37,253 nt of DNA from an uncultured Chloroflexales bacterium (GCA_937967405.1 CALCJV010000052.1:1-37253), one strand, 5' to 3'. Positions 6,141-23,818 are shown, counted from the stretch's first letter. Numbers and translations are program-made. Notes: generated by a model from the sequence alone, not told the origin.

Positions 6141-6386
6141 TCATTGTGCATCTACATTTGATTCGGGGAAAAACTGGAGCGTGATCATCTCGGCACACCA
6201 CTGTTGCGCTTCCTCTGGCGCGGTGAACGCATGTGGAGCCATCTGAATAGGAGTGCCTGCTTCTGGCTCGATTTGGGCATAGTAGGTGGCATGTTTAACA
6301 TTCGTTCTTACCACAGCGCGGATCGCCTCAATCTCACTCGTCCAGCTCATTGTTGCGGCATCATAGTGCCAATCCAGTGAAATCAT
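6141..6386 (-). CDS. Small hypothetical protein (81 aa)
   Basis: A clear coding frame with a good ribosome binding site (GAAGGAG, ~8 nt before the ATG), read in the same direction as its neighbours and 38 nt before the large membrane protein. The protein is soluble and acidic, with a Trp-rich N-terminus and no motif I recognise. It is probably a small alpha/beta protein. No function is assigned. Confidence 0.6.
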   Translation of the reverse strand: MISLDWHYDAATMSWTSEIEAIRAVVRTNVKHATYYAQIEPEAGTPIQMAPHAFTAPEEAQQWCAEMITLQFFPESNVDAQ

Positions 6387-6536
6387 CAGGGGTTACTCCT
6401 TCTATCTATCTCTTGTTAGTATCCCTTGCGTATGGCTGCGCTCCCTCGCAATGTGTGCGTCACGCCCCTGTGACGAGATCATTCCAAATTGTACATGATG
6501 AGGGGGCATCTGTCGAAGTTCTGCTGGCCCCTCCTC

Positions 6537-7670
6537 CTATCCTTGCAGCACCAGCAGCTCACGGGGGAAGGTGGTCAAGCTCTCACCGCCCGTTGACGTT
6601 ACCAACAGATCATCCTCAATCCGAACCCCACCAACACCGGCCAGATAGATACCCGGCTCAATCGTGAAGGTCATGCCCGCCACAAGGGGCGTGGTGCTAC
6701 CCGCCACAATATTGGGCAACTCATGCGCTTCCATGCCAATGCCGTGCCCTGTGCGATGGATAAACTGCTCGGCGTAGCCACCCGCCGCAATCACCGCCCG
6801 CGTCGCTGCATCAATCGTTGCACCTGTGGTGCCCGGCTGCACGGCTGCCCGCCCCGCCGCATTTGCCGCCAGCACCACATCGTAGATCGTGCGGGCCGTG
6901 GCAGAGGGCGTACCGAGTGCTACCGTGCGCGTAAGATCCGAGACGTAGCCATGAGCGACTGCGCCACCATCAAGAATAATCAGATCGCCGAGCGCAAACG
7001 GGCGATCACTGTTGGCGTGGTGAGGGTTGGCACTGTTTGGGCCACTGGCAACAATACACCCAAAGGCTTCTGCATCTGCACCGAGCGCAAGCATTGCCGC
7101 CCGCCACTGTGCAGCAAGCTCACGCTCAGTCACACCCACCTTGATCAAGGGAATGATCTGCTGTAACGAGGCCTCGACAATCCGCACCGCTTCGCGTATT
7201 GCCGCCAGTTCGTCAGCATCCTTCACCATCCGCAGCCCTGCGAGAAGGGGGGTTGCATCGGTCGTGTGCAGATCGGGTAGGACAGCTTCCAACGCCCGAA
7301 GTTCCATCACCCGCATCGCCAGATGCTCAACGGCTAGCAACGGAGCCGGGTGTTCACCGAACAGCTGGGCCGTTGCCTGTGCAAGTGCGGCAGTAGGGCC
7401 AGTTTCGTCCTGCCAGCTCACACACCCAATCGGCAAGCCATGAGCTGCGAGAATTGCGCTTGCTCGCGCATGCTCTAGCGCGGGTAGCACTAAGAGCGGT
7501 GGCTGGGGCGTGGCTGGCAGCAGCAGCACGATCAGCCGTTCGTGGGCGTGCATGGCTAGCCCGGTGAGGTAACGCATGCTTGCCCCGCACACCACCGCCA
7601 TGCCATCACATGCAGCCGCCTGCAATGCCGCCCGTAGCCGCGCCAGACGTTCAGGGTAGGGGGTACTCAC
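6537..7670 (-). CDS. M24-family metallopeptidase (Xaa-Pro aminopeptidase/dipeptidase-like)
   Basis: A 377-aa protein of two-domain 'pita-bread' type: a creatinase-like N-terminal domain (~1-130) and an M24 catalytic domain (~140-377). Metal-ligand motifs visible in order: LIILDGGAVAHGYVSDLTRT (two Asp), HRTGHGIGMEAHE (His), TIEPGIY (Glu) and VRIEDDLLVT (Glu). This is the usual dinuclear metal set of prolidase/aminopeptidase P enzymes, which cleave next to proline. No signal peptide, so cytoplasmic. The start is GTG at 7670, immediately after the TGA of the macro-domain gene, with AAAGGA ~12 nt upstream inside that gene. Translational coupling is likely. Confidence 0.9.
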   Translation of the reverse strand: MSTPYPERLARLRAALQAAACDGMAVVCGASMRYLTGLAMHAHERLIVLLLPATPQPPLLVLPALEHARASAILAAHGLPIGCVSWQDETGPTAALAQATAQLFGEHPAPLLAVEHLAMRVMELRALEAVLPDLHTTDATPLLAGLRMVKDADELAAIREAVRIVEASLQQIIPLIKVGVTERELAAQWRAAMLALGADAEAFGCIVASGPNSANPHHANSDRPFALGDLIILDGGAVAHGYVSDLTRTVALGTPSATARTIYDVVLAANAAGRAAVQPGTTGATIDAATRAVIAAGGYAEQFIHRTGHGIGMEAHELPNIVAGSTTPLVAGMTFTIEPGIYLAGVGGVRIEDDLLVTSTGGESLTTFPRELLVLQG

Positions 7671-8261
7671 TCAGTGCGTTCCTTTCTCGTAATATAGCGG
7701 CAGGCTGATGCTATTATACTTGCTCAGCAGCACCTTCAGCGCATCGCTGTAAGCAGCAAAGGTTACAACATCGAAGAGCACAAAGCGTACCAGTTGGAGT
7801 TGCGGGTGCGCTTCCATAAACATGACAACGGTGTTGAGTGCGATGGCTGCCGCCCGTTCGACCGGAAAAGCATAGGTTCCGGTGCTAATCGAAGGGAACG
7901 CAATGCTACGCAAGCCATAGTCGTGGGCAAGGCGCAAGCTCGCCGTGTAGGCACGTGCGAGTAGTGCATCCGCTTGAGGCGCACTGAAGTCGTTCCAAAT
8001 TGGCCCAACGGCGTGGATCACGTAGCGGCAGGGCAGATTGCCAGCCCCCGTCATGCGGGCTTCGCCACGCGGACAGCCATCGGGATATTTGCGCTGAATC
8101 TCTTGGCGAATTGATGCCCCACCGACGCGGTGGATTGCGCCATCTACACCACCACCACCACTGAGAGCACTGTTAGCCGCGTTCACAATCGCATCAGTGC
8201 GCTCCAATGTTATGTCACCTTGCACCAGTTCAAGCGTAGCTTGGTTCACAAATACCCACAT
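7671..8261 (-). CDS. Macro-domain protein (ADP-ribose / O-acetyl-ADP-ribose hydrolase-like)
   Basis: 196 aa from the ATG at 8261. Seen: a macro-domain core starting LVQGDITLERTDAIVNAANS, the GGGGVDGAIHRVGG ADP-ribose-binding loop, YVIHAVGPIW, and SISTGTYAFPVERAA. These match the YmdB/MacroD-like class, which removes ADP-ribose or hydrolyses O-acetyl-ADP-ribose. The frame is open back to 8330, but the domain begins at ~8261 and the extension would run through a perfect hairpin (8285-8309), so the later start is preferred. AAGGAG lies only ~1 nt before this ATG, which is unusually close, so the start is uncertain. It is coupled to the M24 peptidase downstream. Confidence 0.87.
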   Translation of the reverse strand: MWVFVNQATLELVQGDITLERTDAIVNAANSALSGGGGVDGAIHRVGGASIRQEIQRKYPDGCPRGEARMTGAGNLPCRYVIHAVGPIWNDFSAPQADALLARAYTASLRLAHDYGLRSIAFPSISTGTYAFPVERAAAIALNTVVMFMEAHPQLQLVRFVLFDVVTFAAYSDALKVLLSKYNSISLPLYYEKGTH

Positions 8262-8284
8262 ACTCCTTCGGCTCCTGCGTGAAC

Positions 8285-8309
8285 GGGGCAAGCTGTAGTC
8301 GCTTGCCCC
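8285..8309. repeat. Perfect 9-bp inverted repeat with 7-nt loop
   Basis: GGGGCAAGC and its exact complement flank a 7-nt loop. It sits in the 94-nt gap between the glycoside-hydrolase-like gene and the macro-domain gene. There is no T-run on either side, so a classical intrinsic terminator is not supported. It may be an mRNA processing or stabilising hairpin between cistrons. Confidence 0.6.
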
Positions 8310-8355
8310 ACCTGAATACACCTCAGACAATCCTCCGAATCAGACACTTGCTAGG

Positions 8356-11300
8356 CTACTGCCCTCGCACAACAAGGGGCAGATACACCTGCCGGATCAC
8401 CCGCTCGCCTAGTTGCACCGGCGGCAAGGCAATGTTGCGCGGCGGATTGCTTCTCACCGCTACTACGGGCGCATCGCGCAGAGGATCAGGCTGCGCGAGC
8501 ACCTGTGGCGTGGGCGCACCGGCGGTAACGTCGAATGTGTAGCTTGCTGCGCCGCGCCCGTGGATCTCGACTTGGTACGTTCCTGCCGCCAGCGACGGGA
8601 GACTGAGCTGATAGGCAGTATCCGTGCGGCCACTAGCGGCAAGCGTCGCGGCTGCATCCGGCGACCAGACGTAGAAATCTACCGCGCCACCATTCGGGGT
8701 TAGCCTCAGATTGAGGGCTTCGTCGGCCGCAAGCGACAGCCGATACACCTCAACCCCGCCTGCACTAGTCGGCACTGTTTCTGGCACATAGTTGATCCAG
8801 ACACTCTGGGCATCGGCGATATTGCCCGCCCGATCTACCGCCCACACCTGCACAAACTTCAGCCCGGCTGTGGGAAGCAACGTCCAAGAAAGCGGTTGGC
8901 CCACGCGATAGCTAAACCAATCCTGTGAACGCTGTACCGCAATCCATCGCTCTACGCCCCAATTGTACTCGTATTCTACAATATATAGCCCAGCAATGCC
9001 ACTGCTTGGGACGGCATCTTCAATCTCAAGGGCAAGTTCAACCGTCTGATTGCGGGTGATGCGGGCCCCGCCGGCAATCTGGAGGCTGGTAATAGCTGGC
9101 GGGGTCATATCGATGTCCGTTGGCAGCACCGTAATCTGGCGCGTAATGACATTGTTGTTGCGAACAGCATCATTCAGTTGATTGTTCGGATCAATTGTTG
9201 CCCGCAATGTGTATGCGCCCGTTGTCGGCACGACCCGCTCTGTGATACTCGCCTCACCAAACCAACGATCCTGCAATGCGAGTGGAACTGTGCGTGGGTT
9301 CATAGCCCTCCCCCCAGCACCAGTCGCCTCAAAACGCACCTCTGGCGTAATCACGCTCGTATTGCCAATCCGCTCAACCAACTGTCCTACTTGAAACGCT
9401 TGACCAACGCGCACAGTCGCCGGGCGCGTCCACAAGTCATCGGGGCTACCGCGCAGATCAAAGCTCGGCTGGAGCGGGCTGTAGATGGTGAAGGCTGCTT
9501 CACGGCGGGCACTGCTCTGATCTGGATTGACGAGCGTCACGGTGTAATCACCGACAGCGAAAGTATTGGCGGGCAGCGTGAGCATCACGTGTGAGCCATT
9601 GATACGTTGTACGGCAAGGGACACCGTGCCGAGCCGCGCCTGCACCCCTGCTGCAAAATTGCTGCCGTAAATGTGGATGTGGTGACTACGCCCTCCCTGA
9701 CCCGCCGTCGGGCGAATAGCTGTGATTGTTGGTGGGCTTGATGATAACACCGTAAAGGCACGGGTGCGAGTTGCCGCCCAGCCGCCCGGATTGATCACAC
9801 TCACGTCATAGCTACCCACATTTAAACCAGCGGGCACATCCGCCGTCAGCGTCGTGCTGCTGACAAACTGCACATTCCCCAGCACGCGATCACCGAGCCG
9901 CACTTCAAGCGGCTGGATGAAGTTGCTGCCAGTGAGGGTAATCCGCGTCGTGCTGCTGTTGTTGCCTTCAGTTGGGCTGATGCTTGTGAGTTGCGGGAGA
10001 CGGGCTGTATCTATCGGGATCGAGTGAATATAGACCGGACGAAAGCCCACGGGCACAATCGTTGTAGCGGCGTTTGTCTGCGGTGTAATCTGGGCCCCGT
10101 CGCGGCTGAAGGCATTCAAGAAGGCCGCCGAAAGCACCTGCACCTGCTGTGTGGTCGTATCCCGTGACCACAGCACATCCACATAGCTTGTACCGCGATC
10201 AAAGCGATAGGCTTCTACCCCTTCGCCGTAGCTGGTGATCCGCCGGAGCGTGCGCTGCGGCCCCGCCTGCCGGATCAGTTCGCGGTAGGCGTGGTAGGGG
10301 GTGCGGGGCTGGTTCGAGCGATCCAGTAGCCCCGCCGAGAGCCAACCGCTCTCGTGCAGGGTATACCAGCAATAGGCCTGCACCCCAACCGATAATGCCC
10401 GTACCGTCGTCCGCACGATATGGTTGGCCTGCTCATCAAAGAAAGGTTCATTATGAAACTCGGTGTTGAGCAGGAGCGAGGTTTCGTTCATGAAGATCGG
10501 CTTATCCACGCCATACTGCTGCATCACGTTGCGAAGAAACTGCACCTTGCCAAACGTCATGCCGCCCCACGCCTGCCAGCGCGGATCATTCAGATCGGAG
10601 TCGGCTCCAACGGCTTGGAACCACGGGTAGGCATGCACCCCCACCACGTCGAAGCTATCGCCTGCGCCGGCCCGCAAGATGCCCTCGAAGAACCGTTCCG
10701 GCTTGCCCCGCCCCACAATGCGCGTATCGGGGCGATCCAACAGCAAGCCGCCGATGATAATCTTGACATTGGGGTTGGCCGCCCGCATAAACGGGGCGAC
10801 AACTTTCAGCATCTCGCCATAGCTTTCACCGTTGTAGTAGGGATCATCAATATCGCCCCAACAGCCAAAGATATTATCTGGCTGTACAAGGCGGGGGTCA
10901 ATATCAACTTCGTTGCCCAATTCCCAATGCAGCACAGACGGGTAGCGTTTGGCGAGTTCGGCGAGGAACCGCCCATAATCGGCGAAGCGGTCAGCACGAA
11001 TTTCGCTGCACGCATTCGGCGCGATTGTCGCCCAGCGCGGGTAGTCATCCACAATCACCATCGGCGTAAGGTTGGCTGCCGCTGCCGCCGTCAATTCTGC
11101 TTCAAAGCGCACTACCGACGCTGCCGCCCAGTTCCACTGCTCCGGCGGGGTATCTGGATCGGGTTGGATGTCACGCCAGCTGAGCGTATTTAGGCGCACC
11201 CACGTTGCCCCAAGCTCACGGGCGCGGCGGGTTACGTTGGCATTGCTCAGCCGCCCCGAATTCGTTTCAACCCCGAAGATCGGATATTCGATTTGGGCCA

Positions 11301-19027: not shown

Positions 19028-21679
19028 CTACGGAGTCGGCGGCAGATCGGTCGGCGTGGGCAGGGGTTCCTCCGTTGGCGGCGGCACGGGTTCCTCCGTC
19101 GGCGTGGGCAGGGGGTCGTCCGTCGGCGTGGGCAGGGGGTCGTCCGTCGGCGTGGGCCTGCCTACGGCGGGATCATCGGTGGCGGTTGGGATTTGGGGCG
19201 TAGCAGTTGCAGGCGGGGGTCTCGTTCCGTCCCCTCCCCCTCCGCCGGAACGACGCGGCGTAGCCGTAGGTTCTAGCGTAGGCTCTGGGATAGCTGTGTC
19301 GGGTGGTGGTGGAGGTGTGGTTGCAGTTGGTGCAGGTATGGGCGGTGCAGTCGGCTCTGGGATCTCTGTGGGCGCAAGCGTTGGCGGCAGCACAATGATC
19401 GGCGGCTGAGTCGGTGGCGCGGCTGGGGGTTCGGTCAATGCGCCGGTTGGCAGGGGCAGGGGCGTTGCAATAGGTGGGGCGGGTTCAGTTGGGAGCGGGG
19501 TTGGTGGCAGCACGATCACGGGCGGGGCGACATCGGTGGGTGTGGCGGGCGGCAGCTGAGCCAGCGGCGTAGGCGTGCGCGTTGGGGGCAGCGGGGTCGG
19601 AGAGACATTGAGCGTACCAAGCGTGGCTTGGCGGGTCGGGGTGCGCCGCGCACGCGGGTCGGGTGTGGAGGTTGACCGTTCGGCTTGGATCGGCAAGGTC
19701 GGGCGCGGCTCTTGGCGATTGCCCGCACCAGTCGGGGTGGGGGTTGGGGTGGCGGTGCGGGTTGCGCGGGCCCACGCGGTTGCGGTTGCATCGCCTGCGA
19801 TACGGATGCGGGTAGCTTCGGGAGCTACGCCGAGCGCATCAGTGAACTCAGCCATGGAGCGCATCTCGGTTGCCCGCACAACAGTTGCCGTGCCCGCGAG
19901 CAGGGCAACATCTGTGCCGACAAGCGCGAGATCGTGCACTACATCTGCCCGTAGCGTGGGATCAGTGCCATTCAGTGCCATCTGTTGCAAGCTCAGATAC
20001 TCCTGCTGCTTCAGCAGATATAGGTTTTGCACCTGTGCTGCATTCGCACCTACGCGCATTGTTGTGCGCCCCCGTTCAAGCAGTTGCAAATAGAGGAACA
20101 GGGCCAGCAGCGCGAAGCCACTTGCGAGCATCGCCAGCACCGCTATCGCCTGATTGCGTCGCCGTTCGCTGCGTTGGCGAGCGCGTAGCTTTTGGCTAGC
20201 GAGCAGAAAATCGCGCTGCACTGGCGCAAGCTGATCGGGGTGATCGGTGGCCCAGCGTTCCGCCTCATGCAAATCGCTGCCGGTGAGCAGGAGTTCATCG
20301 GGACGATCCTCACGCTCCCACCGGGCTGCTTGGCGTTGCAGAATATTCAGCGAACGGGCATACCACGCCTGATTGCGTTCGCGCACGGGATCAATCAGGC
20401 GGTCGTGGGTCAATTCATACCACACCACCCCGCGCCGCTTCTCCGCCCGTACTAGCCGTGTATCAATCAGATCGGCGATCACGGGATTGGGTAAGCCGGC
20501 GGTGGCTTGCTGCTCTTGCAAGACCTGCCCGCGCAAGCCTGCCTCAGTGATCAGTTGGGTATCAAACCACTCGCGTAGCTGCTGTTCGCGGAGTGCATGC
20601 AGACTGGCAATCAAGCCCACCTGCTCATCGTAGTAATCACCGAGCGTCTGAGTTACATCGCCGAGTGCGGTCACATCGCTGATCGTAATGGCGGTATCAT
20701 CCGGCTCTAGCCCAGCCCAGATGCGATAGCAGACAACCTGCAACTGCACCGGCTCAACCACCGTACCGAGTTGCTCCAGCGTGCTGCCATCGGGCTGCTG
20801 CACCCGCACGCGGCGCAGATCATCGAGAATGCGCTGGGCCGCCGACTCCTCGAAGGTTACGCCTGCACGGATGGCGGGCTGGCGGATGGCTTGCTGCGCG
20901 GCGGCTAGCCCCAGCAGATCGAGCCGGAAGGTATTGCGAAAGCGGGTGGGGACGTGGCGGCTATAGGGGTCAAGCCCGGCGATGAACTCCTCGCGCATCG
21001 AGAACAACGCCCAGAACTCGCGGCGCGGTGAACCCGTGCGGGCAGTGCGGCGTGGCGGGCGTAGGGCTTCGCCAAGCTGCTCGAAGAAGACGTTGCGAGC
21101 CGCTTCGTCAGTTGGGTCAATCGTGAGGATCTCCTCAAACTGGTCGAAGATCAGCACAATGTCTTCTTGGACCGTTGCGCTACGCTGACGCAGGTAATCG
21201 TGCAGGGAGAGCGTAGCCAGCTGTTCGAGCGGAATCTGCTGGGCGGGTGGTTGACTTTCTTCGAGGGCCAGCAATGCGCTGAGGATATAGCGATTGGGCC
21301 GGTACAGTGCTGCTGCATCAGCGGTCGCCGGATCGTCAATAATCTGGCGATAAGCATCACCGACCGATAGGCGCGTGGAGGGTGCGCTCGTGGAGTCGCG
21401 CTGCGGCTCGTGCTGCTGGGCTGTGAAATTGTGCGGATGGGCTGCCTCAAAGCGCATGAGCGGCAGGACGTGGAAGCCGCGCTGCTCGAGGCGCGGGATC
21501 AGCATGGCTTGCAGCAGCGAGGTTTTGCCTGCACCGGAGGGCGAGTGGAGCAGCACGATCCGCTCGGCAATCAGTAAGCCGCTCAGGTCAGCGACTTCGC
21601 GGTCACGCCCAAAGAGCAGCTCGCCGCGATTGAATGAGCGTGGGCCAACGTATGGGTTCGGGCGTGGATTGCGTGACAC
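19028..21679 (-). CDS. Transmembrane nSTAND-type NTPase with a Pro/Thr-rich C-terminal tail
   Basis: An 883-aa protein. Residues ~10-200: GPRSF...LFGRDREV, Walker A SPSGAGKTS (Lys52) and Walker B IVLIFDQFEE (~residue 175), typical of novel STAND NTPases. Residues ~200-500: helical ATPase and winged-helix-like region, including WYELTHDRLIDPVRERN. One membrane segment at ~508-530, flanked on its N-side by a basic run (RQRSERRRNQ), implies a cytoplasmic NTPase and an external C-terminus. Residues ~640-883 are low-complexity Pro/Thr, probably exposed or glycosylated, ending in 8-residue repeats. The start is GTG 21679, 21 nt after the CHAT-SIR2 stop; the ribosome binding site is weak (AGGGT), suggesting coupling. 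A signalling or conflict switch role is inferred from the family. Confidence 0.82.
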   Translation of the reverse strand: MSRNPRPNPYVGPRSFNRGELLFGRDREVADLSGLLIAERIVLLHSPSGAGKTSLLQAMLIPRLEQRGFHVLPLMRFEAAHPHNFTAQQHEPQRDSTSAPSTRLSVGDAYRQIIDDPATADAAALYRPNRYILSALLALEESQPPAQQIPLEQLATLSLHDYLRQRSATVQEDIVLIFDQFEEILTIDPTDEAARNVFFEQLGEALRPPRRTARTGSPRREFWALFSMREEFIAGLDPYSRHVPTRFRNTFRLDLLGLAAAQQAIRQPAIRAGVTFEESAAQRILDDLRRVRVQQPDGSTLEQLGTVVEPVQLQVVCYRIWAGLEPDDTAITISDVTALGDVTQTLGDYYDEQVGLIASLHALREQQLREWFDTQLITEAGLRGQVLQEQQATAGLPNPVIADLIDTRLVRAEKRRGVVWYELTHDRLIDPVRERNQAWYARSLNILQRQAARWEREDRPDELLLTGSDLHEAERWATDHPDQLAPVQRDFLLASQKLRARQRSERRRNQAIAVLAMLASGFALLALFLYLQLLERGRTTMRVGANAAQVQNLYLLKQQEYLSLQQMALNGTDPTLRADVVHDLALVGTDVALLAGTATVVRATEMRSMAEFTDALGVAPEATRIRIAGDATATAWARATRTATPTPTPTGAGNRQEPRPTLPIQAERSTSTPDPRARRTPTRQATLGTLNVSPTPLPPTRTPTPLAQLPPATPTDVAPPVIVLPPTPLPTEPAPPIATPLPLPTGALTEPPAAPPTQPPIIVLPPTLAPTEIPEPTAPPIPAPTATTPPPPPDTAIPEPTLEPTATPRRSGGGGGDGTRPPPATATPQIPTATDDPAVGRPTPTDDPLPTPTDDPLPTPTEEPVPPPTEEPLPTPTDLPPTP
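19096..19157. repeat. 24-bp tandem repeat inside the Pro/Thr tail
   Basis: Two identical 24-bp units (19096-19119 and 19120-19143) and a partial third (to 19157) encode the TDDPLPTP octapeptide on the minus strand. Diverged units continue toward 19050. Length variation by slippage is expected. Confidence 0.85.
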
Positions 21680-21700
21680 AGGTTTCTACCCTAACTCAGG

Positions 21701-23818
21701 TCAACGCCGTAGGCGGGCTGCACCGCCACTTCGTGCTTGGCTCCACTCCCCACTGAGTTGCTGCATAAAATCCTCGACACTGCCCCAGAAAATATCAATG
21801 TCAGATTCTTGGAAGTAGGTTTCAAGGTATGCCCGGGCCCGCTCCGGCTCCAACACGCGCCCTTCGTCAGGGGTGATCTGCGCGGCAACGTGGGCATAGC
21901 GTCGCCGCCGCCCGCGCCCTTCTTGACTCATCAGGCTGCGGAACAGCACGCGGAAGGGCCAGTCGTCAATGCGGAAGCCGAGAAACAACAAGCCCGTATC
22001 GGCGAGAGCTTCGCGCACCGCAATCGGGATTAGGTCTTTGTTTGCCGATACGCCGATCAGGAAGTCAAAGTAATCATCCTCCGCTACGACAATCGAGTCC
22101 GCTTCGTTGCTGATGCCAAACAAGTGATACACGAGGGGGTGTTCAATACTCGGTTGATAATCCGGCTCGTGGTCATAGATCGAAGGCAAGCCCTCGAGCT
22201 CCTCGTGCCAGCGACACACTTCGACGTGCGGGTCTTTGCCGGCTGCGCGTAGCTCTTCGGTGAGCAGGTTGGTCAGGTTGGCGGTGATGTAGATGCGGAA
22301 GGGTAACTCGGCGAGGAGGCGATAGGGGTAGTTTGGGCTATGTTGGCGCGAGTGGCTGCTGATCACGCTGAACAGCTCTTCGAGGCTGAGCTGTTCGGCG
22401 GCATCGGGCAGCTTCTCGCGGTGGCGATCCAGCAGGTCGGAGCGGAGCTGTTCGATCAACTCCTCACGCGGGAACTGCGGGTCTTGGTTGATCGCCAGAA
22501 ACTGGGCTACCTGCGGCAAATCTTCGCGCTGGTGCGGAGCCAGCGGAAAGCCGTACTGATCGGCCCAGCGGCGGGCAAAATCACCGAGCGGATCGAGCAT
22601 AGACTCAGTGACACGCTGCCCGATGATCGGGGTGCAATTGCCGCGCTGGATGTTGCGGATCAGGGCGGGCCACTTCTCAAAGTCGCGCCCATCCTCGCCG
22701 AAGCCGGCCACATACCAGATGCGGCCACTCCGCAGCCGCATAAACAGCACCGGCATCCACCAATCGTTGCGCTCCTGAATGCTGCTGCGGGCCACAGCCA
22801 TCGCCCGATCTATGTAGCCATCGCGCTGCAACTCGCGGAAGAAGACCGGCAGAAAGGCTTGCAGGGTCGCAATGGCAACGTTGCCTTGCATGGCAATCAC
22901 GGCGGGCACTCCGGCGGCAGCAAGGCGCGGGCCAAGCGCGGCGAGGGCAAGGTTCCGGCTCTGGGTCGCATCGCTGCCGGGCCCGGCACTCTGGCACGAG
23001 CCAAGCACGACGAGGCGCGGCAAGTGCGGCAGGTCGTGCATACGCCGCACCAGTTCGCTGCTAGCCACAACGGCCGCTTGCCCCTGCTCATCAGCGAGCC
23101 ACAGATACGGCTCGCCTTGCAGCATTGCACCGTGAGCCAGCAGATAGACAATATCGTAGCCCTCACGCAGGTGATCGGTGATGGTGGTCAGGTTGACTAG
23201 CGGGGCATCGCTGATCACGGTGACCGGTAGATCGTGCAAGCTGGTCCGGATCAGGTCGAGTTCGTGGTCTACATCGAAAGGGGTCAAGGGCTGCCCGCCG
23301 GGGCTATAGTCGCCCACGTTGCGCGGATTGGCGATCACCACCAGCGCACGCAGCGCGGAGCGTGAGCGCAGGCGCACGGGCCGCCAATCGGCACTCCGCA
23401 GGTAGCGCGAGAAGTAGACCTGCTCGCTAGTCAGGAGCGTCGCGCTTGTCAGGGGATGGTGCAGCGTTTCCCAGCGCAGGCTATGCAGTTCGGGAGCCGT
23501 CTCATCCAGATCGAGGCGCAGGCGCACCGGCACACCCGCTTGCTGGGCACTCTCGATGGCACGGCACAGGGCGGCGTGCAGCTCAGTATCGGCGAAGAGG
23601 CTGGCAGTGAGGGTGGCCCCATACTGCTGCGGATCAAGCGTGAGGCGAGCCAGTTCATCACGGGGCAGGGTGATGCTAATTGGCGCACCGCGTTGCAGGC
23701 GGATGTCGGCCTCGCTATCGGGCAGCGAGAAGCGCAGATCGAGGGTATAGCTATGCTCATCGCGCCGTCGCAGCGCAAGTTCAAGATCAGCACACCCGCC
23801 AAGAGCTTTCCGCAGCAT
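21701..23818 (-). CDS. CHAT-domain protease fused to a SIR2-like domain
   Basis: 705 aa from ATG 23818, chosen for GGGGAG 5 nt upstream; the frame is open to 23923 but runs through promoter sequence. Residues ~150-380 form a CHAT (caspase-like) domain with His229 in YLLAHGAM and Cys275 in VVLGSCQSAG, a complete dyad, plus GVPAVIAMQ. Residues ~385-690 resemble a SIR2-like domain: TPIIGQRVTE (~395), FRIYITANLTNLL (~509), HPLVYHLFG (~564) and LLFLGFRIDDWPF (~616). The usual GAG nucleotide-binding turn reads GQR here, so NAD hydrolysis is uncertain. The N-terminal ~100 residues are an all-beta region. It is first in an operon with the membrane STAND NTPase. Confidence 0.83.
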   Translation of the reverse strand: MLRKALGGCADLELALRRRDEHSYTLDLRFSLPDSEADIRLQRGAPISITLPRDELARLTLDPQQYGATLTASLFADTELHAALCRAIESAQQAGVPVRLRLDLDETAPELHSLRWETLHHPLTSATLLTSEQVYFSRYLRSADWRPVRLRSRSALRALVVIANPRNVGDYSPGGQPLTPFDVDHELDLIRTSLHDLPVTVISDAPLVNLTTITDHLREGYDIVYLLAHGAMLQGEPYLWLADEQGQAAVVASSELVRRMHDLPHLPRLVVLGSCQSAGPGSDATQSRNLALAALGPRLAAAGVPAVIAMQGNVAIATLQAFLPVFFRELQRDGYIDRAMAVARSSIQERNDWWMPVLFMRLRSGRIWYVAGFGEDGRDFEKWPALIRNIQRGNCTPIIGQRVTESMLDPLGDFARRWADQYGFPLAPHQREDLPQVAQFLAINQDPQFPREELIEQLRSDLLDRHREKLPDAAEQLSLEELFSVISSHSRQHSPNYPYRLLAELPFRIYITANLTNLLTEELRAAGKDPHVEVCRWHEELEGLPSIYDHEPDYQPSIEHPLVYHLFGISNEADSIVVAEDDYFDFLIGVSANKDLIPIAVREALADTGLLFLGFRIDDWPFRVLFRSLMSQEGRGRRRRYAHVAAQITPDEGRVLEPERARAYLETYFQESDIDIFWGSVEDFMQQLSGEWSQARSGGAARLRR

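Follow-up and report, generated by a model that had tools for sequence, protein, structure and literature searches.

Proteases under the control of STAND NTPases are central to animal and fungal cell death, as where Apaf-1 activates caspase-9, and those studied in bacteria respond mostly to signals inside the cell. In Avs5, an active SIR2 domain is fused to a STAND NTPase. EACC1 is a membrane-associated two-gene system that is common in multicellular bacteria, with a caspase-fold component and variable parts, and some of its versions have STAND domains (Kaur et al. 2020, PMC7159879). The nSTAND1/EAD peptidase systems have an nSTAND1 protein with a C-terminal sensor and a separate peptidase that is recruited by an adaptor, a small domain carried on both proteins (PMC8195603, PMC10907252).

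The locus described here lies in a 37,253-nucleotide stretch of DNA from an uncultured Chloroflexales bacterium, which we call the window, and its features are collected in Table 1. Gene 1 encodes a predicted CHAT protease with a SIR2-fold C-terminal half, and gene 2, which starts 21 nt after the gene 1 stop codon on the same strand, encodes an nSTAND1 NTPase. The pair is widespread, with the STAND switch in the membrane and the sensor predicted to be outside. Neither PADLOC nor NCBIfam has a model for the pair, and NCBIfam has none for either protein. Full-text searches, whose coverage excludes subscription papers and preprints, did not find the pair described. The families of the parts are known, and the pair as a system is apparently undescribed within the searchable papers.

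Table 1. Coordinates of the gene pair in the window and of features at other loci (L numbers); residues are numbered in the encoded protein.
Feature	Position	Strand	Basis or remark
Gene 1, CHAT - pseudo-SIR2 protein, 705 aa	21701..23818	(-)	ORF, Pfam CHAT + SIR2_2, model pLDDT 86.7
Gene 1 ends	ATG at 23818, stop 21701-21703	(-)	AGGGGAG ribosome-binding-like site before ATG
CHAT domain, residues 79-352 (Pfam); fold match 8-363	22763..23584	(-)	PF12770 7.9e-27
CHAT catalytic His229	23132..23134	(-)	invariant in 75/75 homologues
CHAT catalytic Cys275	22994..22996	(-)	74/75 homologues; Cys lost in one copy of the L123 tandem pair
SIR2-fold domain, residues 372-697, predicted to lack catalysis	21728..22705	(-)	PF13289 6e-18, ThsA match, catalytic His absent
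Asn514, at ThsA Asn112 position	22277..22279	(-)	Asn in window and in 42/75 relatives
Phe567, at ThsA catalytic His152 position	22118..22120	(-)	profile alignment to ThsA and KomC
Gene 2 (883 aa, GTG start): nSTAND1 NTPase, single membrane span, tail rich in Pro/Thr	19028..21679	(-)	ORF, PF20703 4.9e-31
nSTAND1 NTPase domain with winged-helix part, residues 9-461	20297..21655	(-)	PF20703 4.9e-31
Walker A Lys52	21524..21526	(-)	invariant in 61 sequences
Predicted membrane span, residues 511-529, RARQRSERRRNQ on N side	20093..20149	(-)	hydropathy 2.56 + charge bias
Predicted helical stalk past membrane, residues 530-640	19760..20092	(-)	long model helices, pLDDT about 50-80
Disordered Pro/Thr-rich tail, residues 641-883, predicted external	19031..19759	(-)	composition, pLDDT <50
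24-bp tandem repeat in tail-coding DNA	19050-19157		
Small gene downstream of gene 2, about 87 aa	18576-18836	(-)	two hydrophobic stretches
CHAT-SIR2 tandem copy, catalytic Cys replaced	L123:3202-5304		
CHAT-SIR2-TIR fusion, Geodermatophilus	L136:8932-11568		
Single-chain CHAT-nSTAND1 proteins	L178:2938-5988, L179:3192-6560, L180:3616-8685		
SIR2_2-CHAT and SIR2_2-nSTAND1-HSP70	L183:3217-5115 and 6313-9030		
C25-like (gingipain-type) genes adjoining pair	L143:14856-16853, L105:2017-4047, L107:16199-18199		about 17 more loci
Chloroflexia C25-like cassettes	L254:5541-8688, L255:5856-9071, L256:5789-9195		
Glycosyl hydrolase 108 muramidase adjoining C25-like gene	L105:4140-5090, L166:2912-3916		
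190-296 aa family near C25-like gene	L143:16862-17491, L127:15439-16326, L105:7546-8295		
FG-GAP repeat genes	L113:14687-20065, L115:14594-19969, L158:14510-18940		

Gene 1 scores 94.9 bits against the CHAT profile PF12770, for which the Pfam cut-off is 24. Its structure, predicted from a 75-sequence alignment with a mean pLDDT of 86.7, has a CHAT half that aligns with Craspase TPR-CHAT at Z = 21.5 over 276 residues, with SAVED-CHAT at Z = 20.9 and with separase at Z = 19.4. The first-pass annotation had read an intact His229/Cys275 dyad from the sequence, and both residues are where it placed them, with the conservation given in Table 1. By predicted fold and His/Cys dyad, gene 1 is assigned to the CHAT family and its product is predicted to be a protease. 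The one homologue lacking the Cys has Pro in its place, and a Cys-bearing copy is encoded just upstream of it.

Gene 2 scores 109.2 bits against the nSTAND1 profile PF20703 (Pfam cut-off 27.1). A GAGKTS-type loop with K52, D179 and E182 in the Walker B region, and H425-D426 are invariant across 61 STAND sequences, and the family profile, the Walker A/B motifs and the winged-helix HD motif together put the predicted protein in nSTAND1. The model of its NTPase, with pLDDT mostly >90, resembles Orc/Cdc6 proteins in Foldseek, with Apaf-1 also among the matches; a sequence search of the PDB with the STAND protein gave nothing useful. The same first reading had described an nSTAND NTPase at this distance from gene 1, with one span and a low-complexity tail of about 240 residues, and this description holds, the tail measuring 243 residues with 52% Pro+Thr and no Lys; the Lys52 that it named is likewise at its stated place. 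The span lies just past the NTPase in 57 of 59 long STAND partners from the homologous loci, and comparing the 20 residues before it with the 20 after it, Lys+Arg are more numerous before it in 50 of the 57, equal in 7 and fewer in 0. By the positive-inside rule, this N-side positive charge would put the NTPase inside and the C-terminal part outside. The membrane anchoring that had been proposed for gene 2 is supported, with a charge bias that is never reversed.

The outer part of the STAND protein has WD40-type repeats in 48 of the 56 readable partners, a Pro/Thr tail in 4 and is unclear in 4, where the WD40 call is a motif count with Pfam confirmation on six representatives. The Pro/Thr tail is carried by the window, its sister and a third genome, which has it at two loci; the tree shows two changes of state. 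As a rare variant of the outer part, the tail was rejected on these counts as the defining sensor. With a Pro/Thr tail in place of WD40 repeats in one clade, the sensor can be examined separately from the switch. On the same strand, the window also has a small gene downstream of gene 2, whose predicted product has two hydrophobic stretches.

The mechanism that we favor, with slightly more belief than doubt, is that a membrane-anchored, Apaf-1-like STAND switch recruits the CHAT protease and activates it in trans, the pseudo-SIR2 domain serving as adaptor. The two genes would make one signaling unit, in which the nSTAND1 protein would be an ATP-dependent switch in the cytoplasmic membrane, with its NTPase toward the cytoplasm and, toward the envelope, an outer part made of WD40-type repeats in most relatives and of a Pro/Thr-rich stalk in the window's genus. 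A signal from outside or at the membrane would cause the NTPase to oligomerize. The cytoplasmic CHAT protease would then be recruited by way of its SIR2-fold domain, which would serve as an adaptor or oligomerization module and cleave no NAD, and clustering would activate the protease to cleave its target, as caspase-9 is activated by Apaf-1. We infer, that is, that the SIR2 domain is the docking part and that the STAND protein activates the CHAT protein, and likewise an outside origin of the signal and cell death or defense as the outcome.

That outcome is what the genomic surroundings bear on. The neighbors of the pair in the window are ordinary metabolic genes, with a DsrE-like protein encoded 5' of the CHAT gene, and among 109 homologue neighbors scanned with PADLOC at 1e-10 there is at most one member per model and no clear defense-island signal. 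No CHAT-SIR2 homologues were found in phages and no full-length ones on plasmids, where the matches are limited to the SIR2 half on two large replicons; a mobile-element origin was rejected on these matches. In eight Chloroflexia loci, the WD40-type STAND gene is followed directly by a gene for a large FG-GAP protein. All of these observations suit a reading of the pair as a regulatory protease system that senses the envelope and serves housekeeping or development, in filament physiology, stress or surface quality control, and not as a suicide or defense device. We regard this as unlikely, though by no means far-fetched. It sits poorly with the patchy distribution, with sensor parts that vary and with genomes that have several copies (two Oscillochloris genomes have three each), and with a list of parts, namely CHAT, STAND, WD40, a TIR fusion (L136), a C25-like protease and a muramidase (L105), of a kind that published surveys have linked to conflict systems (PMC7159879, PMC8195603). 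A defense role for the pair is plausible. The degrees of belief that we attach to these readings overlap, because role and mechanism are separate questions.

A SIR2 fold in the C-terminal half of gene 1, on which the two-component model had been staked beforehand, is borne out by the predicted structure. It matches ThsA with Z = 23.3 over 271 residues (rmsd 3.1), and KomC of KomBC and DSR2 each with Z = 21.3, and Pfam places SIR2_2 (PF13289) at residues 509-668 with E = 6e-18. One possibility is that the domain is a nucleotide sensor, binding NAD or a derivative uncleaved and so gating the CHAT protease, with the STAND protein as a second input. The fold is kept under divergence, with Gly400, Gly568 and Asp581 invariant, and the window's protein, where Asn514 is kept, may still bind NAD. 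But the GAG motif with which SIR2 enzymes bind nucleotides has changed, mostly to G-P-G and in the window to G-Q-R, and in ThsA either N112A or H152A alone abolishes both NAD binding and NAD cleavage, although H152A disturbs oligomers as well (PMC7272460). We consider nucleotide sensing decidedly unlikely, while noting that it is compatible with most of the mechanism favored above.

Less probable again, and in our view very doubtful, is a dual effector, in which CHAT proteolysis and NAD consumption by the SIR2 domain would both kill the cell. The closeness of the fold to the ThsA and KomC NADases and the Asn kept in the window and in 42/75 homologues speak for it. Against it, position 567 is F in 64 of the 75 homologues, L in 7, Y in 2, H in 1 and M in 1. 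Hence the catalytic His is replaced in 74/75, whereas the CHAT dyad is kept in 74/75, and Asn and His occur together in 0/75. Eleven other readable SIR2_2 proteins of the phylum or order keep the His, in motifs such as KLHG, KIHG or HVHG, and a few others from the same phylum have Gln, Arg or Tyr at that position. Since the family as a whole has lost the catalytic His, and the two catalytic residues occur together in no member, the domain is unlikely to be a NADase. We call it a pseudo-SIR2, for which NAD consumption is very unlikely on these alignments; the NAD-consuming effector of the first-pass annotation is therefore given up, an active SIR2 NADase having been rejected on this survey of 75 homologues. 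The pair offers a testable case of an enzyme fold, the SIR2 NADase, reused as an adaptor. The sole SIR2 domain with the catalytic His among the 75 belongs to a CHAT-SIR2-TIR fusion in Geodermatophilus, and there the Asn is absent.

To see how regularly the two genes go together, 84,980 species genomes were surveyed with the CHAT-SIR2 protein alone as query, so that the presence of a partner is unselected, and the best 80 of 322 relatives were taken, a sample leaning to close ones. In the loci of these best 80 of 322, an nSTAND1 gene directly follows the CHAT-SIR2 gene in 71 of 84 cases, and the pair is present in 70 of the 80 loci. The gap has a median of 5 nt, with frequent gene overlaps. The loci span Chloroflexota, Actinomycetota (Cellulomonas, Terrabacter, Jiangellaceae), Acidobacteriota, Pseudomonadota (Cupriavidus) and others, and thus the co-occurrence that had been put forward as a check on the model is found over several phyla. 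Within the family of the window's genome, most genera have full-length CHAT-SIR2 homologues, nearly all of them followed by the same nSTAND1 protein, and the sister genome has a copy of gene 1 that is 97% identical and a partner that is 88% identical. CHAT and STAND distances correlate with r = 0.746, which no permutation of 2000 reaches, and the CHAT and SIR2 halves of one chain correlate with r = 0.718. With STAND distances, those of SIR2 show no closer fit than those of CHAT (partial correlations 0.44 and 0.46), and a tighter SIR2-STAND than CHAT-STAND coupling, which would mark the docking part, was rejected on these figures. Contigs titled Gracilibacteria (L101) and Synechococcaceae (L144) also carry CHAT-SIR2 genes, but the sequence may come from Chloroflexota through misbinning; L101 falls among Chloroflexaceae proteins.

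A directly following partner is missing for 13 of the 84 CHAT-SIR2 genes. These are at contig ends (L110, L136), in tandem copies (L109, L123), in a broken copy (L168), beside inverted neighbors (L124, L169), in L105, where a WD40 fragment is upstream at the contig end, or are real orphans (L114, L116, L125, L137, L166). That the genes are functionally unrelated neighbors by chance, for which one might cite genomes having one gene without the other nearby (L073, L097, L137, L166), deserves virtually no credence, because the sister-genome copy and the recurrence in 70/80 loci exclude chance adjacency, and the pairing across several phyla and the co-divergence run against it as well. The two genes are a conserved unit.

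Related genomes show other arrangements of the same parts. Three single-chain CHAT-nSTAND1 proteins have FGE or WD40 C-terminal parts and no SIR2 domain, and therefore CHAT under STAND control needs no SIR2. In the L183 locus, genes for SIR2_2-CHAT and SIR2_2-nSTAND1-HSP70 proteins lie near each other on the same strand, and both SIR2_2 domains lack the catalytic His. A degenerate SIR2 on both proteins suggests, at the level of sequence, a non-enzymatic adaptor, and the pattern is the behavior of the effector-associated adaptor domain described for such systems (PMC7159879). The STAND partner in the CHAT-SIR2 family has no SIR2 of its own, only the protease carrying that domain.

Flanking genes of the 80 loci were clustered to find further partners. 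About 20 loci, from Anaerolineae, Actinomycetota, Acidobacteriota, Pseudomonadota and Desulfobacterota, have a C25-like caspase-fold protease near the pair (Pfam Peptidase_C25, up to 3.2e-9), and in an alignment of 19 members His278 is invariant and Cys337 is present in 18. It is a candidate downstream protease in these loci of other lineages. Next to the pair in the window no C25-like gene was found, and the genome has homologues on other contigs. The C25-like genes of Chloroflexia stand in a separate cassette, which also encodes a protein of 240-270 aa with no assigned family and one of 107-112 aa whose match is to the C25-like protein's C-terminal tail. The FG-GAP protein is a possible outer partner of the sensor, and its gene is not beside the pair in the window. 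C25-like and FG-GAP neighbors inform the wider system only, and not the window's pair. Two other families were seen near C25-like genes. One is the muramidase, whose tail looks like the C25-like protein tail, as if two effectors had one shared adaptor. The other, of 190-296 aa, has repeated VSFG-like motifs and a hydrophobic C-terminal part, and could be a membrane-acting substrate.

The Apaf-1-like switch that we favor draws on what is seen directly: the pairing (71/84), the co-divergence (CHAT-STAND r = 0.746), the CHAT dyad kept while the SIR2 catalytic pair is lost from a retained SIR2 fold, the Walker motifs, the spans in 57/59 long partners with their N-inside charge bias in 50, and the WD40 repeats past the span in most readable partners. 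It is further supported by the single-chain CHAT-nSTAND1 fusions, the degenerate SIR2 on both L183 proteins and Apaf-1 among the Foldseek matches. Counting against it are SIR2-STAND distances that are not closer, a STAND partner with no SIR2 domain of its own, the real orphan loci, the Asn514 kept in the window, the leaning of the 80 loci to close relatives and the lack of a clear defense-island signal. Going further, and here with more doubt than belief, several phyla may share a bacterial counterpart of the apoptosome that crosses the membrane. In it, a degenerate NADase, the SIR2 domain, would dock the CHAT protease to the STAND switch, whose WD40 or Pro/Thr sensor would be external, and many lineages would add a second, C25-like caspase-fold protease downstream, making an outside-to-inside proteolytic cascade.

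Among known systems, Craspase TPR-CHAT (Csx29) and SAVED-CHAT share the CHAT fold and dyad of gene 1, but here there is no Cas7-11 and no SAVED domain, and control is presumed to be by STAND. Pfam finds no SAVED domain in gene 1, the SAVED-CHAT model matches the CHAT part only (E = 0.0014, residues 223-361), and the ten scanned window neighbors between 12514 and 30492 include no Cas genes, nor is there a TPR match. Thoeris ThsA, KomBC and DSR2 have the same SIR2 fold, with a catalytic His that is replaced here. Avs5 likewise joins a SIR2 fold and a STAND NTPase in one device, whereas here there are two proteins, with SIR2 predicted inactive and CHAT predicted active; the PADLOC Avs models match neither of these two chains at E up to 1. 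Compared with the EAD systems, the SIR2-fold domain is on the protease only, although on both proteins in L183. EACC1 is similar in being a membrane-associated two-gene caspase-fold system with variable parts, but here the membrane protein is a STAND NTPase encoded 3' of the protease, and it is the STAND protein that has the variable part. In EACC1 a membrane domain is encoded 5' of the caspase-fold gene, a position taken in the window by the DsrE-like gene. The Apaf-1/caspase-9 apoptosome shares a STAND NTPase with a WD40 sensor, as in most relatives of gene 2, and a caspase-fold protease as a separate chain. It differs in that here a membrane span is predicted between NTPase and sensor, CHAT stands in for caspase-9 and a SIR2-fold domain for CARD, and activation would follow by analogy. 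Together, the two proteins resemble a bacterial version of the animal cell-death machine Apaf-1/caspase.
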